NCBI GenBank assembly: GCA_020850315.1
Contig: JADZEY010000082.1
Span: 1 to 43,496 of the forward strand
Length of the DNA stretch: 43,496 bases
Direction of reading: 5' to 3'
Source: Armatimonadota bacterium
GTDB lineage: Bacteria; Bacteroidota; Ignavibacteria; OLB7
Shown: positions 1-25,332 of the stretch, one piece after another
Layout: each line of letters begins with the position of its first letter
Numbering within the stretch: position 1 is the stretch's first letter
The notes under the pieces: generated by a model
What the model was told of the DNA's origin: nothing
Databases searched by the model: none
What the model saw: only the letters and a program-made list of their open reading frames with translations
Made by a program: the position numbers and the translations under genes

Positions 1-1108
1 CCAATAATCGTTGTCCCGGCTTGCCAGCAAAGACGCTGATGCGTTCACCTGCAAAGTCACCACCAATCGTGACCAGATCAAGGACATGATCGCCCGTGAC
101 ATCACTGAACAGAGCGAACTCGCTGCCAGAAGAACGAACGTTGATGGACTGAATCTCGGTGGTATCTATCCATGGTATTTCCGAACGCTGATAGACAACA
201 TGAACATCTATGATGTTGTTGCCGAAGATGTTGCCGCTACCATCATAGAAGATGAGGTCATTCTCCCCCGAGCAATCATGGTCACGATATTCTATTCCTT
301 TATCACCAGGTGGAGACCACCACCGTTGCACAGGCGAATAGTCTCTGCCATTGCGTCCCCATCGTTTCCCTGGCTCCCCTGCAAACACATAGATCCTTGG
401 AATCTTCACCAATCCACCACGGGTGAACCCTGAGCCTGTTCCTCGCACCAACAGGTCGGCTATCTGGTCGCCATTGAAGTCACCACTGACACCTCGATTC
501 GGAGTAATCCAAATCGGCGCATCACAGGGTAATTGGGTGGTGTCGCTGGTTGAGTAACCACCATTGGGTTGCCCCCAGAAGACCACTGGCATACCGATGT
601 ATCGCCCTGTCGGCCCTTGTGAGGTATCGTTATAGAGATGGATGCCGCAAACGATGTCGAAGAATCCGTCAGCATCAAAGTCACCAGTACAGAGGAACGT
701 AGTCATCGAGCCGATTTCCGTTGGTCCGATGCGGAGACCATCGGCAGGAGTTGGCAGCTTGTTCTTCCTGCCATAGAACAACAGTAACTCGTTGCCACGA
801 GTTGTCTTATCAGTACCAAACGCTGTGTCACAACGGGTTCGCTCGATAATGTAATCGGCCAGTCCGTCGTTGTTCAGATCACCGGTTGGAATGATCTGCA
901 TACCAAACAGCTCTCCAGTTTCACCTACCCAACCGGGCAAGCAGGTTAATGTAGCCCCATCCATGGTTCCCCATTCTTGCATGTAAGCAACGGAGGGGTG
1001 TCGTGGGTCAATGCGGTCTTGGGCGTGGCTTCCGGTGTGGGCAAGCAGTAGCACTGCTGTTGTTAGCAGCAGAAGAAAAACGCAGTTGTTGGTGTGTGGT
1101 GTTCTCAC
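1..1108 (-). CDS. Secreted FG-GAP/VCBS-repeat protein, 3' end cut by the window edge
   Basis: An open frame of 369 codons runs without a stop from a GTG at 1108 to the left edge. It begins with a signal peptide (hydrophobic LLLLTTAVLLLA, probable cleavage after SHA near residue 29). Four FG-GAP/VCBS-type calcium-loop motifs follow: GDLNNDGLADY, GDFDADGFFDI, GDFNGDQIADL and SDVTGDHVLDL. In this family such repeats form a beta-propeller on exported or surface proteins; the ligand is not known here. The GTG overlaps the stop of the upstream ATPase gene (GTGA, 1105-1108), so the two are probably one operon with coupled translation. There is no alternative ATG near the signal peptide, which fixes the GTG start. 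A T9SS sorting domain might follow beyond the window, but this is inference. Confidence 0.85.
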   Translation of the reverse strand, partial: MRTPHTNNCVFLLLLTTAVLLLAHTGSHAQDRIDPRHPSVAYMQEWGTMDGATLTCLPGWVGETGELFGMQIIPTGDLNNDGLADYIIERTRCDTAFGTDKTTRGNELLLFYGRKNKLPTPADGLRIGPTEIGSMTTFLCTGDFDADGFFDIVCGIHLYNDTSQGPTGRYIGMPVVFWGQPNGGYSTSDTTQLPCDAPIWITPNRGVSGDFNGDQIADLLVRGTGSGFTRGGLVKIPRIYVFAGEPGKRWGRNGRDYSPVQRWWSPPGDKGIEYRDHDCSGENDLIFYDGSGNIFGNNIIDVHVVYQRSEIPWIDTTEIQSINVRSSGSEFALFSDVTGDHVLDLVTIGGDFAGERISVFAGKPGQRLL

Positions 1109-4100
1109 TCTTCTTCCTGTTGGGCTAATTTCATCTCTACTCGCGTGGCTTCGGTGCGCTTCCCCTGGCGCAGCAGCACTTCGCGGAAGAGCTCGGCAAT
1201 TTCCTCGTCGTCCGGCATTGCGGCAAAGGCTTGCTCCAGAAGTTCTTCGGCAGTGGGAAGGTCTCCTTCCTTAGTGAGCAGTTTGGCCACACGAAGCAAG
1301 GTCTCGCGCAAGGTGTTCTCGTAATCTTCGCGGGCGGATTCAAAGAACTCATCATACAGGGTGGGGAAGGGGACTTGGCCGCAGCCGATACGCATGGCGG
1401 CGGCAATGGCCGGAACCGCACGGAGCAATCCCCCTTCCTTTAATGCCCTGATCGCTTCTTTCAGCTGCTGGTCGGCTTCTAACAGGTCAACCCACACGGC
1501 TTCACGGTTCAGCTGGGGGACCTCGCCGATGGTGTCAACCGCTTCGCTCCCAATCGCTTCCCGCAGCCGGAAGACGGCAAAATTCAGCGACTTCCGCGCC
1601 TTGTCGGGGTCGCGCTCGTTGCCGATTGCCAATGCCATAAACTCACGGTGGGAAAGCCGGCGGGCCAGCATTTCGTTGGCGGTCATCAGCCCCAACAGTG
1701 TGGCAATTTGCGCCCCACGGACGCGCTCCGGTTCTTCGCCCGGGCGTTGCACGGTGATAGTCCCAAACATCATCACTTTGGTGCGGGTTTCTGCCGATTC
1801 GTTGCTGGCCAGTTGCTCCGATTCCCGTTCGCGTTGCAGTGCTTTCAGCCGTGCGCGGCGGGCCGTAAGCTCACCTTTACTGAAGGCGTAGCCGAACTCC
1901 TTCAGCAGCGGCGCAATCAGCGCCGGAAGCCGCAGCCGTTCAAGGTGTTCCACCGCACGTTCCAGCCCGTCGTGAAGGTGGCGGCGTAGCGTCTCCGGGA
2001 GCGATTTGAACTCCTGCGGCATGGACCCCACCAGCCGGAACACCGCGTGGGTGGCCGCCAGGTCTTCAATGGCTAAGATTGGGCAGCGGAAAATTTCCCC
2101 AACAACTCTCTCAACTTCCTGAAGCGCGCCCCCTTGCTGAACAAGCTGCTGCAACCGTGCCAGCAAGTTGAGTGGTTCGCGCAGGCTTGCGGTGCTGTCT
2201 TCAGTTTCGTTAATGGTTTCGTTCTCCAGCAAATAGCCAAGCGTAGCGGTCAGGTCTTGTGTGCGAATGCCGAATTGCTCACGTAATTGGCGGGCTTTCT
2301 GCTGATCGCACCGGAGCAGTGCCGTACGCATCAGGATGGAGCCGATAAGCTGATGCCCTAGTACTTTCAGCACGTTGGTGTTGCTGGCGCAGACTTCTTC
2401 GGCTTGTTGGGCAAGGGCGCCGAAATCGGCTCCAAGCATTGCGTTCGCGTTCAGCATCACAAGCTGGCAACTCATGACTTCCGGGCGCAGCCCAAGCTCG
2501 CGGAATCGTGGAAGGGAGCGTTGGGCATTGGCAAGCATCTCATCCAACAATCCGATCTCGTGATACAACCCAATCTTCTGGATTCGCAGGTCGCTTTTCC
2601 GTCCCTCTTTGGTCAGCTCCTCAAGTTCCTGGATGGATTGCAGCCGCCGTTGCAGTTCTTCCTCGGTTTGGTACAGCCACAGCAGGTTGGGGGAGATGCC
2701 AACAAAGGCACTGCGGACGATATCGGCAGGAATGGAGGGATCATTCTGTAGCTCGTTCAGTTTCCGTTCCACCATCCGCATCAGTTGCAGGTTCCGCAGC
2801 GAGCTTGCCGCGCGCCCTAGGTCAATCAGGTTCCCGGCGTAGCGTATATGGCGACGCAGTGCGGGGAATTGTTCCACCACCTGCTCCACTTCGCCCCATT
2901 GTTGCTCCAGTTGTTCGGGATGTTTACGCCGCAGCAATCGCCGCTGGAAGATCAAGCCGGCAAGGCGATACTCACCCCAGGTTTCGTTGATTGGGTTGGC
3001 GGTAAGCTCCAGCAACTGCTCCACAAGCTCGGTGTACTCAGGGGCTTGTTCGCGCCGCAGCAGTTGCAGCCGGTAGCGGATCAGCATCACATCGAGTTCC
3101 CGTTGTGCGGGTTCTTCTAACTGGGGTCGCACCCGTGTGGCCATTTCCGCACCGATACTCCATATCGCTAGGGAGGAACGCCACATTCTGGTTCCATCAA
3201 TCACAAAGGCGATGGTTAAGATGCCCCGAATCGCCTGCAACACTGTTTCGGGAGTGGCGGTGATGCTGCCAAGCTGTTTTCCCAATAGTTCCAGCGGGAG
3301 GATGGAGTAGAGGGTGCGTTGTTCGGCAAGGAGTTGCACGATCATGTTTGGGTCGTGCGTGCGGCTTTCCACAAAGTGACGGTGGATCAGGTTGTGGGTG
3401 AAGGTTAGTGGGGTTCCGATTGCACGATATTCGGCAAGGGAGGAGGGGGTTGCTGTGGGTACCGAGAGAACCCCTTTGAATATCAGCGGGTTGATTGCTG
3501 CGGCGGCATCCGGCAGCAGAAGGGCGGCGGTTTCGCGGGCGAAGACTTCCCCCAGCATCGCCACGGTTGCTGCGGCGGATTTCTCCGATTCGGTTAAGTG
3601 TGCCACCATTCCTTCGGAGAGCAGCCGAACGTTCCGCTCCAGCGAGTCAGTGAAGGCGCGTGCGTCAATCATTCCGCTTGCGGTGGAGGCCGCCGCCGCT
3701 GCGCGATTTCCTGCTTGGGTTGGGCGCACGGCACCACGCAACGCGGAGCGAATCGCCATGGCGTTCCCCAGCGTTTTTTCCGAAAGGGCGCGGATTGCAG
3801 CCTCATCCAGCGCGTGGTTGCCGAATATCTCCGTGCAGATCGTCGCAATGTCCGATTCATTTATGCCGGTTAGTACAATCTCATCTACAAGAAATCGCTC
3901 AATCAGCCCCCGTGCAGCAAGGGTGACGGGGCGGGCTGTGAGAAGAATGGAGAGGGGCTCATCGGCAAGGCGTTCCAGCAGTGGGGCGAACTCACCCAGG
4001 ACGTCGCCGCCCAGCAGGTGGACATCTTCCAGCACCAACAGCGTTGGCCGAAGCCCGCAGATGCGAAGGATTGCCGAAGTAACCCCCGACAACGTTTCTT

Positions 4101-4416
4101 CGGGATCAGATTTCAGCAGCTGCTGGGCGGCAGGGTTGCGGGAAACCGCGCGCGCCAGCAGCGAAGGGATAGAGGTTGCAGCGTCGGGATAGAATCGCGC
4201 CTGCATCACCACCCCTCCGGCAATCGAAATTTGCGATGCGGCTTCTTCGGTCAAACGACTTTTCCCCACCCCGGCTTCCCCCACTACCATCATTGTTCGC
4301 AGCCCGTGCGCCTGGAACGTTTCGCGCCAGAAATTCAGCAATCGCTCAAGCTCCGCCTCCCTTCCGGTAAACGGAAGCAGCCCGTGGTTCAGGAAATTTA
4401 TTAGTGTGCGGTTCAT
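1105..4416 (-). CDS. Large AAA-type ATPase with C-terminal SARP/BTAD-like DNA-binding domain
   Basis: A 1103-residue cytoplasmic protein. Residues about 15-330 are an AAA/STAND-type ATPase: Walker A GEAGVGKS at 46-53 and Walker B LLVLEDVH at 126-133. A long alpha-helical middle part (about 350-860) looks like TPR-type helical repeats. From about residue 878 the C-terminus resembles an OmpR-type winged helix followed by a bacterial transcriptional activator (BTAD) helical domain, with KARKSLNFAVFRLREAIG matching the usual recognition-helix region. SARP regulators such as AfsR carry these parts in the opposite order (DNA-binding N-terminal, ATPase after it), so this is an AfsR/MalT-like regulator with a rearranged layout. 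The next gene overlaps its stop codon. It adjoins a cluster of secreted-protein genes whose promoters carry 22-bp direct repeats, and it is the obvious candidate activator. No Shine-Dalgarno is seen before the ATG. Confidence 0.8.
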   Translation of the reverse strand: MNRTLINFLNHGLLPFTGREAELERLLNFWRETFQAHGLRTMMVVGEAGVGKSRLTEEAASQISIAGGVVMQARFYPDAATSIPSLLARAVSRNPAAQQLLKSDPEETLSGVTSAILRICGLRPTLLVLEDVHLLGGDVLGEFAPLLERLADEPLSILLTARPVTLAARGLIERFLVDEIVLTGINESDIATICTEIFGNHALDEAAIRALSEKTLGNAMAIRSALRGAVRPTQAGNRAAAAASTASGMIDARAFTDSLERNVRLLSEGMVAHLTESEKSAAATVAMLGEVFARETAALLLPDAAAAINPLIFKGVLSVPTATPSSLAEYRAIGTPLTFTHNLIHRHFVESRTHDPNMIVQLLAEQRTLYSILPLELLGKQLGSITATPETVLQAIRGILTIAFVIDGTRMWRSSLAIWSIGAEMATRVRPQLEEPAQRELDVMLIRYRLQLLRREQAPEYTELVEQLLELTANPINETWGEYRLAGLIFQRRLLRRKHPEQLEQQWGEVEQVVEQFPALRRHIRYAGNLIDLGRAASSLRNLQLMRMVERKLNELQNDPSIPADIVRSAFVGISPNLLWLYQTEEELQRRLQSIQELEELTKEGRKSDLRIQKIGLYHEIGLLDEMLANAQRSLPRFRELGLRPEVMSCQLVMLNANAMLGADFGALAQQAEEVCASNTNVLKVLGHQLIGSILMRTALLRCDQQKARQLREQFGIRTQDLTATLGYLLENETINETEDSTASLREPLNLLARLQQLVQQGGALQEVERVVGEIFRCPILAIEDLAATHAVFRLVGSMPQEFKSLPETLRRHLHDGLERAVEHLERLRLPALIAPLLKEFGYAFSKGELTARRARLKALQRERESEQLASNESAETRTKVMMFGTITVQRPGEEPERVRGAQIATLLGLMTANEMLARRLSHREFMALAIGNERDPDKARKSLNFAVFRLREAIGSEAVDTIGEVPQLNREAVWVDLLEADQQLKEAIRALKEGGLLRAVPAIAAAMRIGCGQVPFPTLYDEFFESAREDYENTLRETLLRVAKLLTKEGDLPTAEELLEQAFAAMPDDEEIAELFREVLLRQGKRTEATRVEMKLAQQEEE

Positions 4417-4716
4417 GGGATCAGGAAATCAGGAATTGGAGAGGGGAGAGGTTGGTTAATGGAACCAGCGATTGGTAAAAATATAGGGTACTGCTCTTAA
4501 TTAGAGTGCGTTGGGAATGGGAGTAGGGAAGATTTTGCTGGGGAGATTGCGTCCGCTACTCAACACGGGGGGGCGGGAACCAACGTCGAGAAGGAGATGG
4601 CAATGCTTCGGTTGTTCACCTCACCTCCGCTCATGCTGAGCCCGTCGAAGCCTGTCCTGAGCTTTGCCGAAGGGTATGAGTGGAGCCACCGAACGGGAAA
4701 TCTTTCACTCTTCCAG
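4417..4716. other. Intergenic region between divergent transcription units
   Basis: No convincing gene. On the minus strand a TATATTTT-like box (around 4480) could serve the ATPase gene. The only other structure is the dispersed repeat at 4632-4674, described separately. A short open frame here (4597-4794) has no ribosome site and spans the repeat, so it is not called. Confidence 0.5.
4632..4674. repeat. Dispersed 'TGCTGAG...CGAAG' repeat, two head-to-tail units
   Basis: Two near-copies of the motif TGAGC(C/T)(C/T)(G/T)(T/C)CGAAG follow each other. This short element, often read as CTTCGGCAAGCTCAGCATGA, is scattered through many bacterial genomes as an extragenic repeat. A further copy overlaps the end of the sigma-54 regulator gene at 27631-27654. 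Confidence 0.6.
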
Positions 4717-4784
4717 CCTAAATCGTTTTCCCACGATTACGGCAATCGGTTCGGAGCAAACCGGAAGGTTGGGCGGCTACCTTG
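4717..4784 (+). promoter_or_regulatory. Putative promoter with three degenerate 22-bp units and TACCTTG box
   Basis: Three consecutive 22-bp blocks (4717, 4739, 4761) resemble the clearer arrays at 5504 and 6505. AATCG occurs in the first two blocks (4721, 4744). The third block ends in TACCTTG at 4778-4784, which fits the TATCTTG box seen at the other arrays. This is the weakest of the three examples: the spacing of the core drifts by one base and the third unit lacks AATCG. It lies 75 bases upstream of the CARDB-like gene and is followed by an AC-rich leader. Confidence 0.4.
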
Positions 4785-4858
4785 TACAGCATAGTTCGGC
4801 ACAAAACTGGCCGAACCAGAACCACAACACAACCACAACACAACAAGGAAGCAGAACA

Positions 4859-5386
4859 ATGAAGACAACAATCAACGCAATCCTACGCTTTTGCATGATT
4901 CCGGCAGCACTGGTGGCAATGGTTGCCGCCACAGCAACCGCTCAACCGACGCAAATCCCGTTATCATCGGGCCAGCAACGCCCAAAACCAACCCGCGACA
5001 TCACTGCAACGGGGGACTTCCGGATTGTTGGCGCAACCCAAACATTCGGTGTGAACTACGGCGGGAGCATCACCCTGAAAGCCAGTGACCTAACTTTTGT
5101 GGCCACTACCAAGAAGTATGCCATGAATATGATCTATACCATGACCAACAACGGCAATGCTGGAACTGGTTTGTTCAACAATCGGATTGTTGATAATGGT
5201 GCCGGGATAAGCGGCGTAACCGGGCAATCGCTGAACGCTGGCCAAACAAAGGCGGTTACTCACTCCAAAGTGCAGCTCTCCGAGGGGACTCACATCATCA
5301 CGCTGATGCTGGATGACGCGAACGCCTGCGCCGAAACTGACGAGGGGAACAACACCTTCAAGCTGACAGTGGTGATTGTGCCATAA
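4859..5386 (+). CDS. Small exported CARDB-like protein
   Basis: 175 residues starting at the ATG that follows an AAGGA ribosome site. A signal peptide (hydrophobic core AALVAMVAATATA, cleavage near residue 28) is followed by about 145 residues. The second half has the features of a CARDB-type Ig-like fold: YTMTNNGNAGTG, an LNAGQTK strand turn and the diagnostic end LDDANACAETDEGNN. CARDB domains are adhesion modules of extracellular proteins in bacteria and archaea. The partner is unknown. A longer open frame reaches upstream to 4664, but it covers the promoter-like region and dispersed repeat, so the signal-peptide start is preferred. The signal peptide closely resembles that of the secreted protein at 7001, suggesting co-evolved export. 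A hairpin terminator follows 46 bases downstream. Confidence 0.8.
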   Translation: MKTTINAILRFCMIPAALVAMVAATATAQPTQIPLSSGQQRPKPTRDITATGDFRIVGATQTFGVNYGGSITLKASDLTFVATTKKYAMNMIYTMTNNGNAGTGLFNNRIVDNGAGISGVTGQSLNAGQTKAVTHSKVQLSEGTHIITLMLDDANACAETDEGNNTFKLTVVIVP

Positions 5387-5432
5387 CGAACCGACGGAAC
5401 GATGCTTCGGTAGCGATGCTTCAGTAGCAATA

Positions 5433-5468
5433 GCAGCGGGGAGCCATAACCCTTCCCGCTGCGGTTTT
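5433..5468 (+). terminator. Rho-independent terminator after the CARDB-like gene
   Basis: GCAGCGGG (5433-5440) pairs with CCCGCTGC (5455-5462). Three further G-T/A-T/G-C pairs extend the stem inward, and GGTTTT follows. Confidence 0.75.
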
Positions 5469-5503
5469 CCGAAACGGAGCAACCTCGACCCAAAATTTTT
5501 TTG

Positions 5504-5571
5504 CCGACAACCACTTTCTCCAAAACCGATAACCGCTTTCCCCCAAACCGACAATCGCCCCCGCTATCTTG
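5504..5571 (+). promoter_or_regulatory. Three tandem 22-bp repeats ending in TATCTTG promoter box
   Basis: Three exact-length units start at 5504, 5526 and 5548. Each begins CCGA(C/T)AA(C/T)C. The first two continue with TTTC(T/C)CC and A-runs. In the third the second half is replaced by the TATCTTG box (5565-5571). The core GACAATC ends seven to eight bases before the box. A 22-bp period is two helical turns, the arrangement described for SARP activators, which bind heptamer direct repeats spaced 11 or 22 bp with the last one about 8 bp from the -10. It follows directly on the terminator of the preceding gene. Confidence 0.55.
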
Positions 5572-5577
5572 ATAGAG

Positions 5578-6311
5578 TGCCTGGTAGCAACGGGCAATGT
5601 AAACCACCAACAAGAAAGAATCGCGGCACGGCCACCAACCGCGCCTGCCACACCAAACGAAAGGAAACCAGCAGATAGATCTGGTTGACAAGCAAGAGAG
5701 AGAGCAGTAATTAAAGAAGCGAGAGAGCCACCACCACAAAAAGCGGCGCACCACACTGCAAAGAAAAAGGGAAAGGAGAGCGGCACACCACCAGCCGCTG
5801 CAGATGGAGAGAAAGAGAGGAAACAACAACGCCGATAATGAGAGCAGGCACGGCGTATCACAACACACCATCAGCCGGGAACCACCACCCCGGCAAAACG
5901 GCAACACCACTGCCAACAGCTTGGAAAATCAACCGAGCAAAGGGAAGAGTGAAATAGAGAGATAGAACAATTCTTCCTGAAAAAACCACCACCAGAAGGA
6001 GCAGTGCCGAAGCATTGTGTGGGGGGAGTGAGCAAGAGAGAGAAAAAAGATGGCGCACCGGAGAATGCCATTGCAGCACAAAAGGCAATGGGGGCGGCGG
6101 TCCACCGCCCCCGAAGCCAACCAACTGAGGTCAAGAGAGAGAGACAGAGGTGTGGAGAGGCAAGAGAATCGCCAACAGCGCGATCATCACAACGCAAAAG
6201 AGAACCGATATCTTCTCCTTCGTTGTCTATAAACCGTAATTAGTCGCCAATCGTTTGTTCCTCCAATCCGCTGGGAAGCCTTGTGCAGCAAGGGCTTCCC
6301 AGCATTTTTTT
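5578..6311 (+). ncRNA. Candidate long T-depleted non-coding transcript
   Basis: About 730 bases lie between the promoter-like array at 5504-5571 and a strong terminator at 6270-6311, with no convincing gene on either strand. The plus strand is strikingly poor in T: by hand count about 46 T in the 540 bases 5641-6180. It is built of GA runs (CAAGAGAGAGA at about 5692, 6032 and 6132) and AC-rich stretches. Two hairpins stand out: GCCGGG/CCCGGC around 5874-5902 and GGGGGCGG/CCGCCCCC around 6089-6112. The long open frames on the minus strand are a consequence of T-depletion, not genes. It could be a regulatory RNA, an over-long leader whose gene was lost, or decayed DNA. Confidence 0.35.
6270..6311 (+). 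terminator. Strong rho-independent terminator without an obvious upstream gene
   Basis: GCTGGGAAGCC (6270-6280) pairs perfectly with GGCTTCCCAGC (6293-6303) and is followed by ATTTTTTT. Its orientation means that something is transcribed on the plus strand across 5578-6269, or that read-through from the CARDB-like gene needs stopping. Confidence 0.8.
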
Positions 6312-6504
6312 GCGGGGAAGAACCGGAGCCGTGCGCCCTTACAGGGCTTTGGATTGGGGGGGAATGTGATTCCCAGGACGATGCCATAGTCTTGAGTGGA
6401 ATGCCCTGTTGGGGCGGTAGGACACAGCACGCAGGTGAGGTTTTTTTCCGGCACACAGCGCAGGCAGGGCATAGATGAGGCAAAATTTCTTGAAGAAAAA
6501 TTCA

Positions 6505-6572
6505 CTGCCAACTCACATTGCCCAAAGTGATAATCGTTTCCGCTGATTCTGATAATCGCTGCCGATATCTTG
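6505..6572 (+). promoter_or_regulatory. Three tandem 22-bp repeats ending in TATCTTG promoter box
   Basis: Units start at 6505, 6527 and 6549. Units two and three share TGATAATCG, and unit one is more degenerate (GCCAACT core, GCCCAAA end as in the 5504 array). The third unit runs into TATCTTG at 6566-6572, seven bases after its AATCG. This is the same layout and spacing as at 5504-5571, although the sequences differ at many positions. It stands 76 bases before the zinc-ribbon gene. Confidence 0.55.
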
Positions 6573-6648
6573 AATGGTATAAACAACGCCACCACAACGA
6601 AAACAGAACAGAGAGTTCCAGAACGAGGGACTACGAAAGGAAGACGTT

Positions 6649-6936
6649 ATGCAGCCCGTTTCAACAATCCGACCAACAATGTCGCCAGGCTATCGGGAAC
6701 TTCGGCAATGCCCAAAATGTGGATCCTTCGGCAGCGAAGCGGACACCTTCTGTGCCTGCTGTGGAACCCAACTAAAACCCACCTGCAATGCCTGCGGAAC
6801 CGCAGTGGAGCAAACCATGGCATTCTACTGCACGCATTGCGGAACGCGGCTGGCAGAAGGGAGCAACGTAACGGAAGAACGGAGAAGCGAACCGGGGAGC
6901 GCAGCAGCATTTTTTCGGAACCACCGTGGGCAATAA
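6649..6936 (+). CDS. Small double zinc-ribbon protein
   Basis: 95 residues starting at an ATG preceded by GAAAGGAAG. Cysteine pairs CPKC, CACC, CNAC and CTHC form two consecutive zinc ribbons of the DZANK type (about residues 20-68). The remaining 27 residues are polar and unstructured. Such ribbons bind zinc and usually mediate protein or nucleic-acid contacts. No catalytic domain is attached, so the role is unknown. There is no signal peptide, so it is presumably cytoplasmic, unlike its neighbours. It is followed after a 64-base AC-rich leader by the secreted protein at 7001 and is probably co-transcribed with it from the 6566 promoter box. Confidence 0.65.
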   Translation: MQPVSTIRPTMSPGYRELRQCPKCGSFGSEADTFCACCGTQLKPTCNACGTAVEQTMAFYCTHCGTRLAEGSNVTEERRSEPGSAAAFFRNHRGQ

Positions 6937-7000
6937 CTGCCCAACAACCACATACAATCGAAACCAACACACAACCAACACACAGAAAGGAGCCAGAACC

Positions 7001-7492
7001 ATGAAGAAGCAACTCAGCAACCTGATCAAAATCGCAGCTATCGCCATTGCAATGGTTGCGGCAACGGCAATCCCAGCACTTGCACAACGGGGCGTAGCCG
7101 TTAATCCAAACATCCAGATTGCCAAAGTAACCGAAGTGCAAGTTGCCCCATACTTGGGTAGCGGCAACGGTGGCGGTAACTGCCCGCAAGGGGCAAGCTA
7201 TTCGGCAATGATTACCGTTGATGGGCCCTGCACCGTAAAGTTCGCGTGGATTACCGACAAAAATCCGAACCCGCCAGCATCCAGCTACACCAGCATCAAG
7301 TTCGACAAAGCGGGGTCGAAACCATACTACTACTACTTCAGCGCGACCAACGATCATCCAACGGTGTCCGGCTGGGTTGGCGTGAAAATCACTGCCCCAA
7401 ACCAGATGGAGTCCAACCATGTGAACTACTCGCTAAGCTGCACCCCAACCAATACTGTGCAGGTTAACCCGAACATCAAAATCAAGCCATAA
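7001..7492 (+). CDS. Small secreted protein of unknown function
   Basis: 163 residues starting at the ATG after AAAGGAGCC, an excellent ribosome site. A longer frame from 6926 overlaps the zinc-ribbon gene and is rejected. The signal peptide (IAAIAIAMVAATAIPALAQ) is cleaved after ALA near residue 28. The mature part is glycine-, tyrosine- and asparagine-rich, with a Cys pair about 23 residues apart (GGNC and GPC) and a late Cys in SLSCTP, which suggests a disulfide-stabilised beta protein. A curious internal echo exists: VNPNIQIAK near the N-terminus of the mature chain and VNPNIKIKP at the very C-terminus. No family was recognised. Confidence 0.75.
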   Translation: MKKQLSNLIKIAAIAIAMVAATAIPALAQRGVAVNPNIQIAKVTEVQVAPYLGSGNGGGNCPQGASYSAMITVDGPCTVKFAWITDKNPNPPASSYTSIKFDKAGSKPYYYYFSATNDHPTVSGWVGVKITAPNQMESNHVNYSLSCTPTNTVQVNPNIKIKP

Positions 7493-7516
7493 TCGGCAAG
7501 CAAAAAAAGATATTCT

Positions 7517-7546
7517 CCGAAGCAAAAAACTTTGCTAACTCTTCGG
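7517..7546. other. Nested stem-loop after the secreted-protein gene
   Basis: CCGAAG (7517-7522) pairs with CTTCGG (7541-7546) and an inner AGCAAA (7521-7526) pairs with TTTGCT (7531-7536). No T-run follows, so termination is uncertain. The block AAGCAAAAAA recurs 22 bases apart (7498 and 7520), so this could instead be a degenerate promoter array like those at 5504 and 6505. Confidence 0.4.
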
Positions 7547-7848
7547 GGATCGCTTCCGTTAAGCACCACAAGAGAGAGAGACAGAGAGAGGAGCGCAGGG
7601 AGAGAAACAACACGGAGCCTGCGCAACAGTAAGCATCACAAAACCCGGCGGAGAGATACCACCAACATCATCCGCCGGGGCTTCGGAACCGACAAGCAGC
7701 ACAGAGAGAGAGAGAAGGTTCAGAGAGTTCAGTTCCGAAATTCCAAACAGATAGGGGACGTTATCACACACTGCGTGCCCTTCCGCATCGGCAAATCAAG
7801 CCGAGAAATCACACAACCACCACACAAAGAACAGGAGAGAAGACGGCC
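7547..7848 (+). other. T-depleted, GA-rich leader before the NlpC/P60 lipoprotein gene
   Basis: No gene seen. The 180 bases 7561-7740 contain only about 14 T by hand count. GA runs appear at about 7570 and 7703. A stable hairpin, CCCGGCGGA (7644-7652) with TCCGCCGGG (7671-7679), has no T-run, so it is more likely a leader structure than a terminator. The last 40 bases are AC-rich and end in GGAGAGAAG before the ATG. Confidence 0.5.
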
Positions 7849-8931
7849 ATGCGTCAGAACGTCGCACGTACTATCAAAAGCGTCATCAGCGGGACCGCAC
7901 TGATGGCGCTTTCTATTGTCGGTTGCACCGATAGCAGCAACCCGTTAGCAAACCAAGAAATCGCGGCCCCATTTGCCAAGCACGCCAGCCAGTATAACTA
8001 CCAATCACAAAGCAATCCAGCCCGCACCGAGGTGTATGATGGATCTGCATTGATTGCTACTTTCACCAACGGCAGCTACACCGTCACCCTTAGCGGTCCG
8101 GGCCGCACCTTCACCGAAACCAACACCGTGAACGGAACCACCTACACCGCAACCGTTGCCCACACCACATGGGTTCGCACGCTTCCGGCAGCGTTCAACG
8201 GCACGGTAGATACCACCTGGCTGAACGATGCGATTGCCGCTAACACTGCCGGAACCGCCGATCTGCTGGCCATTGCCATGCAGTACGTTGACGGAGCCAC
8301 AGCAATCTATCAAGGCAATCAAAACATTGCTGGCGATGCTGACTACGGCCCGCTGCAAGATGACGGCACTCGCCAAGAAGGTTCCGATTTCAACGACTAC
8401 TTGGGGCTTGACTGGAGCTACGGATCCACCACCGATGCAGCCGAGAGCAACCAGCACAACTCCCTTGATTGCTCTGGCTTCATGCGGATGATCTGGGGGT
8501 ATCGTCACCACGGAACAGGTGCGGCTGGCGTTGTTGACACCATCCCGCTGTCGCTTGAGGCAACCGCTAATTTCACCACACTTCCGCGCAAGTCGTTCCA
8601 GATTTGCGATTCGGCGATGGGGGTGACGATTATCAGCAACAGCGGTGGTATGGTGACGAACTACGCGCCGCTGAACGTTGGCGATCTTGTGTTCTTCGAT
8701 GCCGACACCACCGCCTCCGACGGCTCGCGGATTGACCACGTGGGGATGTACATGGGGCTGGATAATGGTGGCAAACGCCGTTTCATCAGCAGCCGTAAAT
8801 CTATCAATGGGCCAACAATGGGGGATTACAAGGGGTCATCGTTGCTGGATAAGTTTGTGAAGAAAAGCGGGACGAACATCTACGAGCCGGTGCTGTACAC
8901 CAAAGCCTTCCGCGCCGCCCGCCGATTGTAG
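7849..8931 (+). CDS. NlpC/P60-family lipoprotein, probable cell-wall peptidase
   Basis: 360 residues. The N-terminus has a lipoprotein signal with lipobox SIVGC (Cys about residue 26). The C-terminal half is an NlpC/P60 cysteine peptidase: the catalytic Cys208 sits in NSLDCSGFMRMIWGY and His297 in RIDHVGMYMG, at normal spacing, with the GDLVFFD motif before the His. These enzymes cleave bonds of peptidoglycan stem peptides. The region between (about 40-180) is low-complexity Thr/Asn/Ala-rich and of unknown fold. It is likely anchored in the outer or inner membrane facing the periplasm. It has its own long T-poor leader. The catalytic assignment is firm; the substrate is inferred from the family. 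Confidence 0.8.
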   Translation: MRQNVARTIKSVISGTALMALSIVGCTDSSNPLANQEIAAPFAKHASQYNYQSQSNPARTEVYDGSALIATFTNGSYTVTLSGPGRTFTETNTVNGTTYTATVAHTTWVRTLPAAFNGTVDTTWLNDAIAANTAGTADLLAIAMQYVDGATAIYQGNQNIAGDADYGPLQDDGTRQEGSDFNDYLGLDWSYGSTTDAAESNQHNSLDCSGFMRMIWGYRHHGTGAAGVVDTIPLSLEATANFTTLPRKSFQICDSAMGVTIISNSGGMVTNYAPLNVGDLVFFDADTTASDGSRIDHVGMYMGLDNGGKRRFISSRKSINGPTMGDYKGSSLLDKFVKKSGTNIYEPVLYTKAFRAARRL

Positions 8932-9163
8932 GGAGTGTCGAATGGAGAATGGGGAAGAGAGAGAATGGGACATGGGGAATGGTGAGTGATAGATGGGGGA
9001 GGATCAAAGAAGCACATGACCTGCTTGGGTGAGATCAATCAGCATTCCCCCTGTTTCCCGTGTTGCTGTTTTCAGTAGATTGCTCCCCACACAACTGATG
9101 GAGTTGGCTCCATCGCGAACACACACACACATCAACAACCGTTGTACTTGGAGGAACCTTCCT

Positions 9164-18812: not shown

Positions 18813-19222
18813 TCTGCCACAGCACCAACGTCCGCGTTCGCTACCGCGATACCGACCAGATGGGGGTGGTTTATCATGGGGTCTATCTGGAATTTTTCGA
18901 GACGGGGAGAACGGAGTTGTTGCGCGCTTGTGGAATGGCCTACTCTATCATTGAACGCGGTGGGCTGTTGTTGCCAGTGCTGGAAGCAGTGCTGCGGATC
19001 CAACGCCCAGCCCGCTACGACGAACTGATTACCGTCACCGCCACGATGAAGGAGCCAACCGGAATCCGCTTGCTGATCGAGTACCAGATCCACCGGGGTG
19101 ATCTTCTGCTGGTAACTGGCTCCACCACCCACGTTTTCACCACTGCCGATGGCATGAAACCTGTTCGCCCGCCTGCCGGATTTTTGGAGGTGTTGCGGCA
19201 AGGCAATCATCCCACTTCCTGA
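18809..19222 (+). CDS. Acyl-CoA thioesterase, YbgC/4-hydroxybenzoyl-CoA thioesterase type
   Basis: 137 residues, full family length. The hot-dog thioesterase signature RYRDTDQMGVVYHGVYLEFF sits at about 11-30, with the catalytic Asp in the DQMGVVYHxxY stretch. Such enzymes hydrolyse short-chain or aromatic acyl-CoA thioesters, and in proteobacteria one member accompanies the Tol-Pal system, which is absent here. It overlaps the preceding membrane-protein gene by four bases and is followed after 17 bases by the metallo-hydrolase, so three genes form a run. The substrate is not predictable. Confidence 0.85.
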   Translation: MICHSTNVRVRYRDTDQMGVVYHGVYLEFFETGRTELLRACGMAYSIIERGGLLLPVLEAVLRIQRPARYDELITVTATMKEPTGIRLLIEYQIHRGDLLLVTGSTTHVFTTADGMKPVRPPAGFLEVLRQGNHPTS

Positions 19223-24951: not shown

Positions 24952-25084
24952 GTCAGTTGTCAGTTGCAAAGAAAGTCATTGGTCATTGGGCATTAGTCAC
25001 TCACGTTACGCAAAGCCAAGGTCAGTTGTCAGTTGCAAAGAGGGTCATTAGTCCTTGGTCATTAGTCACTCACCTTAGGCAGAG
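24952..25084. repeat. Two adjacent direct repeats of about 65-69 bp
   Basis: Copy one (24952-25020) and copy two (25021-25084) both start GTCAGTTGTCAGTTGCAAAG and run through ATTAGTCACTCAC. They contain scattered GTCATTA/GTCATTGG heptamers, the unit of the tandem array at 25246. They lie directly upstream of the ispG start. Confidence 0.85.
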
Positions 25085-25208: not shown

Positions 25209-25245
25209 CTGGCAGCGAGCGAGGGCAGGTGCGTAAGGTGAGCTA

Positions 25246-25294
25246 GTCATTAGTCATTAGTCATTAGTCATTAGTCATTAGTCATTAGTCATTA
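25246..25294. repeat. Heptamer tandem array, seven copies of GTCATTA
   Basis: Seven exact head-to-tail copies of GTCATTA begin at 25246, 25253, 25260, 25267, 25274, 25281 and 25288. It lies just after the 3' side of the rhomboid gene, so its copy number can vary without touching coding sequence. The rest of 24943-25332 holds no gene. Confidence 0.95.
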
Positions 25295-25332
25295 GTGGAG
25301 AGTTCGCTGTTCATTGGCATTTGGCATTCGTC

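Follow-up and report, generated by a model that had tools for sequence, protein, structure and literature searches.

Direct-repeat arrays beside a STAND ATPase with a C-terminal SARP module: candidate operators of an exported-protein cluster in an Ignavibacteria genome

INTRODUCTION

SARP regulation has been described mainly in actinomycetes, and SARP operators are built of direct repeats spaced by 11 or 22 bp, with the 3' repeat located 8 bp from the −10 box (PMC10936776). In AfsR, the SARP domain is N-terminal and is followed by NOD and then by TPR. It takes up the −35 region, holds region 4 of sigma, and acts as an activator, while NOD and TPR restrain it until ATP binding relieves the restraint (PMC10936776). 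Literature searches, which covered open-access papers, retrieved no description of SARP regulators in the Chlorobiota/Bacteroidota lineage.

Here, we analyzed a stretch of 43,496 nt, hereafter called the window, from an organism named Armatimonadota bacterium (assembly GCA_020850315.1, contig JADZEY010000082.1, positions 1 to 43,496 of the forward strand) and placed by GTDB in Bacteria; Bacteroidota; Ignavibacteria; OLB7. The source genome (G000, 4.24 Mb) belongs to an uncultured bacterium and was compared with that of a congener (G001) and with others; the genomes compared are metagenome assembled, and the named relatives are Chlorobiota/Bacteroidetes MAGs. Our analysis makes it quite probable that the direct-repeat arrays found in the window are operators of the C-terminal SARP module of a neighboring STAND ATPase and that such operators are activating and mostly private to each paralogue.

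RESULTS

Two arrays on the forward strand are clear. Array 1 (5504 to 5571) consists of three 22-bp units with the cores GACAACC at 5506, GATAACC at 5528, and GACAATC at 5550, in exact 22-bp steps, and the last core is separated by 8 nt from a TATCTTG box (5565 to 5571). Array 2 (6505 to 6572) displays GATAATC at 6529 and 6551, again 8 nt before TATCTTG (6566 to 6572), and its distal unit, GCCAACT, is degenerate, which leaves two clear units of the three initially assigned to it. The initial annotation had recognized three blocks of three 22-bp units that run into TATCTTG-like boxes, with the core ending about seven bases before the box. This description stands for arrays 1 and 2, with the gap corrected to 8 nt in both, but not for block 3 (4717 to 4784, forward strand), the weak one. 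Block 3 is a promoter region ending in TACCTTG (4778 to 4784) that is well conserved in G001. Of its three units, only the middle one has an in-register core, GGCAATC (4741 to 4747); the proximal sequence, GGAAGGT, fails to match the core, and the distal AATCG is shifted by 1 bp. A clean array of three 22-bp units was therefore rejected here. The 22-bp step and the 8-nt gap of the clear arrays match the SARP rule, as had been proposed (PMC10936776).

No −35-like element was evident by eye before the boxes. Over the upstream regions of genes as a whole, TATCTTG showed only weak enrichment, and we therefore treat it as a putative −10 element. A de novo search of upstream regions for a general −10 box gave no clear box, the set being blurred by mechanically listed open reading frames.

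The DNA flanking the arrays has a skewed composition and contains simple repeats, which would favor reading the arrays as chance or low-complexity tandem repeats with no regulatory role. The counts argue otherwise. A pattern of two units plus the box (up to 3 mismatches) occurs twice in the window and in none of 100 dinucleotide shuffles, both arrays are conserved in G001 (array 2 on contig C55), the operator is also present in a third genome, G002, and period 22 stands out among 24 periods (see below). A chance origin is therefore hardly credible; it is refuted for the two strong arrays, though not fully for block 3. Elsewhere in the window, intergenic DNA carries a perfect run of the heptanucleotide TAGTCAT (25244 to 25296) and a 69-bp tandem repeat (24952 to 25081).

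In the whole 4.24-Mb genome, the same pattern (up to 3 mismatches) is found at four sites, and the reversed-pattern control gave 0. A genome-wide scan of this kind had been suggested with the initial annotation. All four sites were placed in the ATPase gene cluster. The two sites outside the window are on contig C73, at 17907, preceding another zinc-ribbon gene, which is accompanied by one for an exported protein, and at 18970, preceding a short stretch that adjoins FG-GAP genes. Contig C5 of G001 carries the same pair of arrays as C73, and its last 54 bases are the start of the contig with the ATPase orthologue. Since C5 (L170) aligns to the end of C73 (L037) and to the start of the window, with a gap of about 80 bp, all four arrays of G000 belong to one gene cluster. 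The FG-GAP genes break the assemblies of both G000 and G001. In G001, the block comprising the ATPase, the CARDB gene, array 1, and the U-poor stretch appears in the opposite orientation with respect to the FG-GAP genes (L038 1 to 6412 versus window 1 to 6313), which may reflect either a true inversion or an assembly artifact. A single-core match on contig C20 falls within a coding gene and was discarded. A stricter three-unit scan matched the window array and its orthologue only, and a two-unit scan anchored on the box was required.

Upstream of array 1, an exported protein of 175 amino acids (4859 to 5386, forward strand) carries a CARDB domain (E value of 1.5e-9) and a hydrophobic N terminus. 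Past array 1 lies a predicted untranslated, U-poor transcript (5572 to 6313, forward strand) with a T content of 7 to 10% and no open reading frame of at least 80 amino acids. It ends in a strong, conserved intrinsic terminator formed by a hairpin (6270 to 6303; −26.5 kcal/mol, z score of −5.2) and a T run, and the stretch has a counterpart in G001. It is probably a long noncoding RNA of about 740 nt; an Rfam search of window positions 4400 to 9000 gave no match. The first gene past array 2 encodes a double zinc-ribbon (DZR) protein of 95 amino acids (6649 to 6936, forward strand), with Zn_ribbon_3 and DZR matches above the cutoff. It is followed on the same strand by an exported protein of 163 amino acids without a Pfam match, conserved in G001 and with a signal-peptide-like N terminus (7001 to 7492), and by a lipoprotein-like NlpC/P60 protein of 360 amino acids (7849 to 8931; NLPC_P60 E value of 1.8e-6). 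The N-terminal signals of the 175- and 163-amino-acid proteins were judged by eye. The Pfam search detected no type IX sorting domain (Por_Secre_tail) in the window's own exported proteins.

The ATPase, P0001 (1105 to 4416, reverse strand; 1,103 amino acids), has a NOD/AAA_16 N terminus, a putative helical middle (residues 420 to 870 or so), and a C-terminal SARP module. The AAA_16 match covers residues 15 to 155 (Pfam E value of 1.3e-13) and includes the P-loop GEAGVGKS. The predicted fold of the N-terminal 420 residues (pLDDT of 71) matches CED-4, Apaf-1, plant NLRs, and Orc1/Cdc6. The Pfam TPR matches fall only within the C-terminal BTAD region. P0001 can be described as a STAND-like protein (AAA+/NOD-like and TPR), with moderate confidence as to the N-terminal fold.

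The SARP-like module that had been noticed at the C terminus (residues 870 to 1103; 1108 to 1809, reverse strand) was borne out by both profile and fold searches. It comprises an OmpR-type winged helix and then BTAD. A profile of 22 C termini of the family, compared with the PDB, retrieved AfsR (8hvr) as the best match over the whole length (E value of 6.6e-6), and BTAD was matched by 20 of the 22 paralogue C termini. The AF2 model of the module (pLDDT of 87.6) matched AfsR (Z score of 16) and EmbR (Z score of 14), the sole PDB matches with an E value of ≤0.001 in the fold search (Foldseek/VIA). The agreement of profile and predicted fold argues that the C-terminal 230 or so residues are a real SARP module of the AfsR/EmbR type. 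The predicted recognition helix of the winged helix, RKSLNFAVFRLREAI (1552 to 1596, reverse strand), was located by alignment to AfsR. In the profile alignment, the AfsR DNA-contact residues R92 and R94 are kept in P0001 (R950 and R952), and T88 and K95 are not.

P0001 is one of a family, which the initial annotation had not recognized. G000 encodes 18 complete or almost complete paralogues along with several others that have diverged or are truncated, about 20 in all, and most have an orthologue in G001. Among 395 genomes sampled across the phylum, only 9 gave any match to the ATPase family; long matches came only from the window's family and from two more families in the same class. An orthologue of P0001 itself is present in three genomes, G000, G001, and G002. 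The G002 protein is 42% identical overall, has an almost identical recognition helix (RKSMNFAVFRLRE versus RKSLNFAVFRLRE), and has the operator in common. The GAYAATC operator (up to 2 mismatches) was found four times in G000, four times in G001, twice in G002, and a single time among the other 38 genomes, which suggests that it is essentially confined to genomes with a P0001 orthologue.

The enrichment of arrays near ATPase loci of related genomes that had been predicted was indeed found. The box-anchored scan covered 721 boxes within 4 kb of paralogues and 24 periods, with the repeat in a fixed position. At period 22, 12 of the 721 boxes were positive, a count that includes orthologous loci twice and corresponds to about 9 independent cases; the remaining 23 periods averaged 0.74. 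Near other paralogues, arrays of this geometry were found with different cores: GTGACGG (L042), CGTAAGA (L050/L064), CTTGGCA (L051/L065), GNAATYGG (L055/L070), GTTACCG (L079), GCAAYCG (L080), TGAATCG (L081), and CGTAAGC (L082). In one further case (L052/L066), the core CTGTTATC is repeated at 23 bp. Orthologue pairs retain their own core. At 11-bp spacing, no box-anchored case was conserved between orthologues, and orthologue-pair footprinting at all periods from 10 to 45 gave arrays for only a few pairs.

Several arrays lie 70 to 460 bp from the start of the ATPase gene, between divergent genes, a position that would also suit operators through which the linked ATPase represses or regulates itself rather than activating its neighbors. 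Such a mode of action is unlikely. All 12 period-22 positives are oriented divergently from the ATPase and point away from its gene, and a fixed gap of 8 nt before a −10-like box, in promoters where no −35 is evident, is the geometry of SARP activation (PMC10936776). Because the distances agree and no −35-like element is evident, activation by the AfsR route is the best inference.

The arrays might instead be bound by another regulator, not linked to the ATPase, that controls the same genes. Shared occurrence does not amount to binding, roughly half of the paralogues have no detectable array nearby in the box-anchored scan and the orthologue-pair footprinting, and control stretches away from paralogues contained three array-like sites. 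Against these points, the GAYAATC operator essentially follows the P0001 orthologue, the cores differ among paralogues and persist between orthologues, and the ATPase itself bears a module of the class known for this geometry, all of which makes a separate regulator very unlikely. Regulation by the linked ATPase is thus the reading that we retain, and its proposed role as regulator of the exported-protein cluster is supported computationally by the SARP fold, the array geometry, and the enrichment near ATPase loci.

The CTTGGCA operator has three sites genome-wide (control, 0). One of them is located 42 nt before a gene for a 566-amino-acid exported protein on a different contig, which shows that the candidate regulons are not always local. 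A second array with another core (TGTAATCACC, two copies) is present at L051 (11254), 190 bp upstream of the CTTGGCA array; it is absent at the orthologous locus of G001 and may serve another regulator. Arrays at L125 (3098) and L172 (6974), on different contigs and far from any known paralogue, precede similar-looking outer-membrane-like proteins of 555 and 566 amino acids. At L047 (5311 to 5370), a run of 11-bp TTTTTACGGGG repeats lies about 2.2 kb from another paralogue, and its distance to any box does not fit the 8-nt rule.

For 11 regulators, the distances between recognition helices and between operators were uncorrelated (rho of −0.01, permutation P value of 0.50). A readable helix-operator code was dropped on these grounds, and operator choice is not established as following from the recognition helix; the conservation of cores between orthologues is unaffected.

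The first gene past an array is usually a small double zinc-ribbon gene, again a point beyond the initial annotation. A zinc-ribbon profile search gave 13 matches in G000 and more in its relatives. Among the stand-alone zinc-ribbon genes, 10 of 12 have a period-22 array, whereas each of the other periods between 12 and 35 gave 0 or 1, and the optimum spacer at these promoters was 8 nt when the spacer was varied. The downstream genes are mostly for exported or outer membrane proteins and include type IX-like exported, Rieske, globin, and outer-membrane-like proteins. At three other loci, Por_Secre_tail was matched just under the cutoff (E values of 6.6e-6 to 1e-3) in the first exported gene. 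Globin genes are found behind arrays at L039 (13081) and L080 (12245), in two relatives of another genus. In G000, at L052 (2 to 2737), near a STAND-SARP paralogue, a double zinc ribbon, a cyclase-like region, and an AAA_16-like ATPase form one chain; this fusion hints at, but does not prove, a joint function of the zinc ribbon and the ATPase.

DISCUSSION

The arrays most likely belong to a family of SARP activators that is specific to this lineage, gated by ATP, and equipped with private operators. We propose that a signal would switch on the NOD/TPR part of P0001, allowing the regulator to bind two or three direct repeats placed two helical turns apart. With the proximal repeat 8 bp before the −10 box, the SARP domain would stand in for the missing −35 element and recruit RNA polymerase, in the manner of AfsR. 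Transcription from array 1 would yield the U-poor untranslated RNA and that from array 2 the zinc-ribbon gene followed by the exported proteins. P0001 would also switch on two further promoters immediately to the left of the window. Paralogues with a detectable operator would mostly use their own core. Since the cores mostly differ while the geometry is constant, these switches for surface and exported proteins should run in parallel and be largely non-crossing. More speculatively, the 20 or so STAND-SARP proteins could form an NLR-like repertoire of sensors, each with its own signal, its own operator, feedback of the zinc-ribbon protein on the ATPase, and an exported output; we consider this broader scheme rather unlikely.

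These observations place the SARP operator rule and fold in Chlorobiota/Bacteroidota, with the domain order reversed. The paralogue expansion, in which operators vary from copy to copy at fixed geometry, offers a natural set for studying how SARP recognition evolves. It also supplies candidate orthogonal regulator-operator pairs, a naturally orthogonal series if the sensor repertoire is real, and a testable handle on the control of exported proteins in uncultured bacteria.

Among known systems, AfsR of Streptomyces coelicolor shares with P0001 the SARP fold, combined in one protein with a STAND NTPase and TPR, and, with the arrays described here, a direct-repeat operator whose 3' repeat is 8 bp from the −10 box. 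P0001 differs in the reversed order (AAA_16 at residues 15 to 155, SARP module at 870 to 1103), in a spacing of 22 bp (once 23), whereas the AfsR box is two 11-bp repeats, in its Chlorobiota/Bacteroidota lineage with about 18 full-length paralogues, and in its likely targets, zinc-ribbon and exported proteins instead of antibiotic regulation. The small SARPs of the ActII-ORF4/DnrI type likewise use directly repeated heptamers, one or two turns apart, near the −10 box, but they are actinomycete pathway regulators without ATPase or TPR (PMC10936776). EmbR of Mycobacterium tuberculosis has the same fold, a winged helix and then BTAD, but its C terminus is an FHA domain and it lacks a STAND ATPase. 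The STAND activators of the MalT/LAL type combine a STAND NTPase and TPR with a C-terminal LuxR-type helix-turn-helix; the placement of the DNA-binding domain is that of P0001, whereas the type of domain and the operator geometry are different. Finally, the fused protein at L052 unites in one polypeptide the zinc ribbon and the ATPase that are encoded by neighboring genes in the cluster described here, with a cyclase-like region where P0001 has its DNA-binding module.
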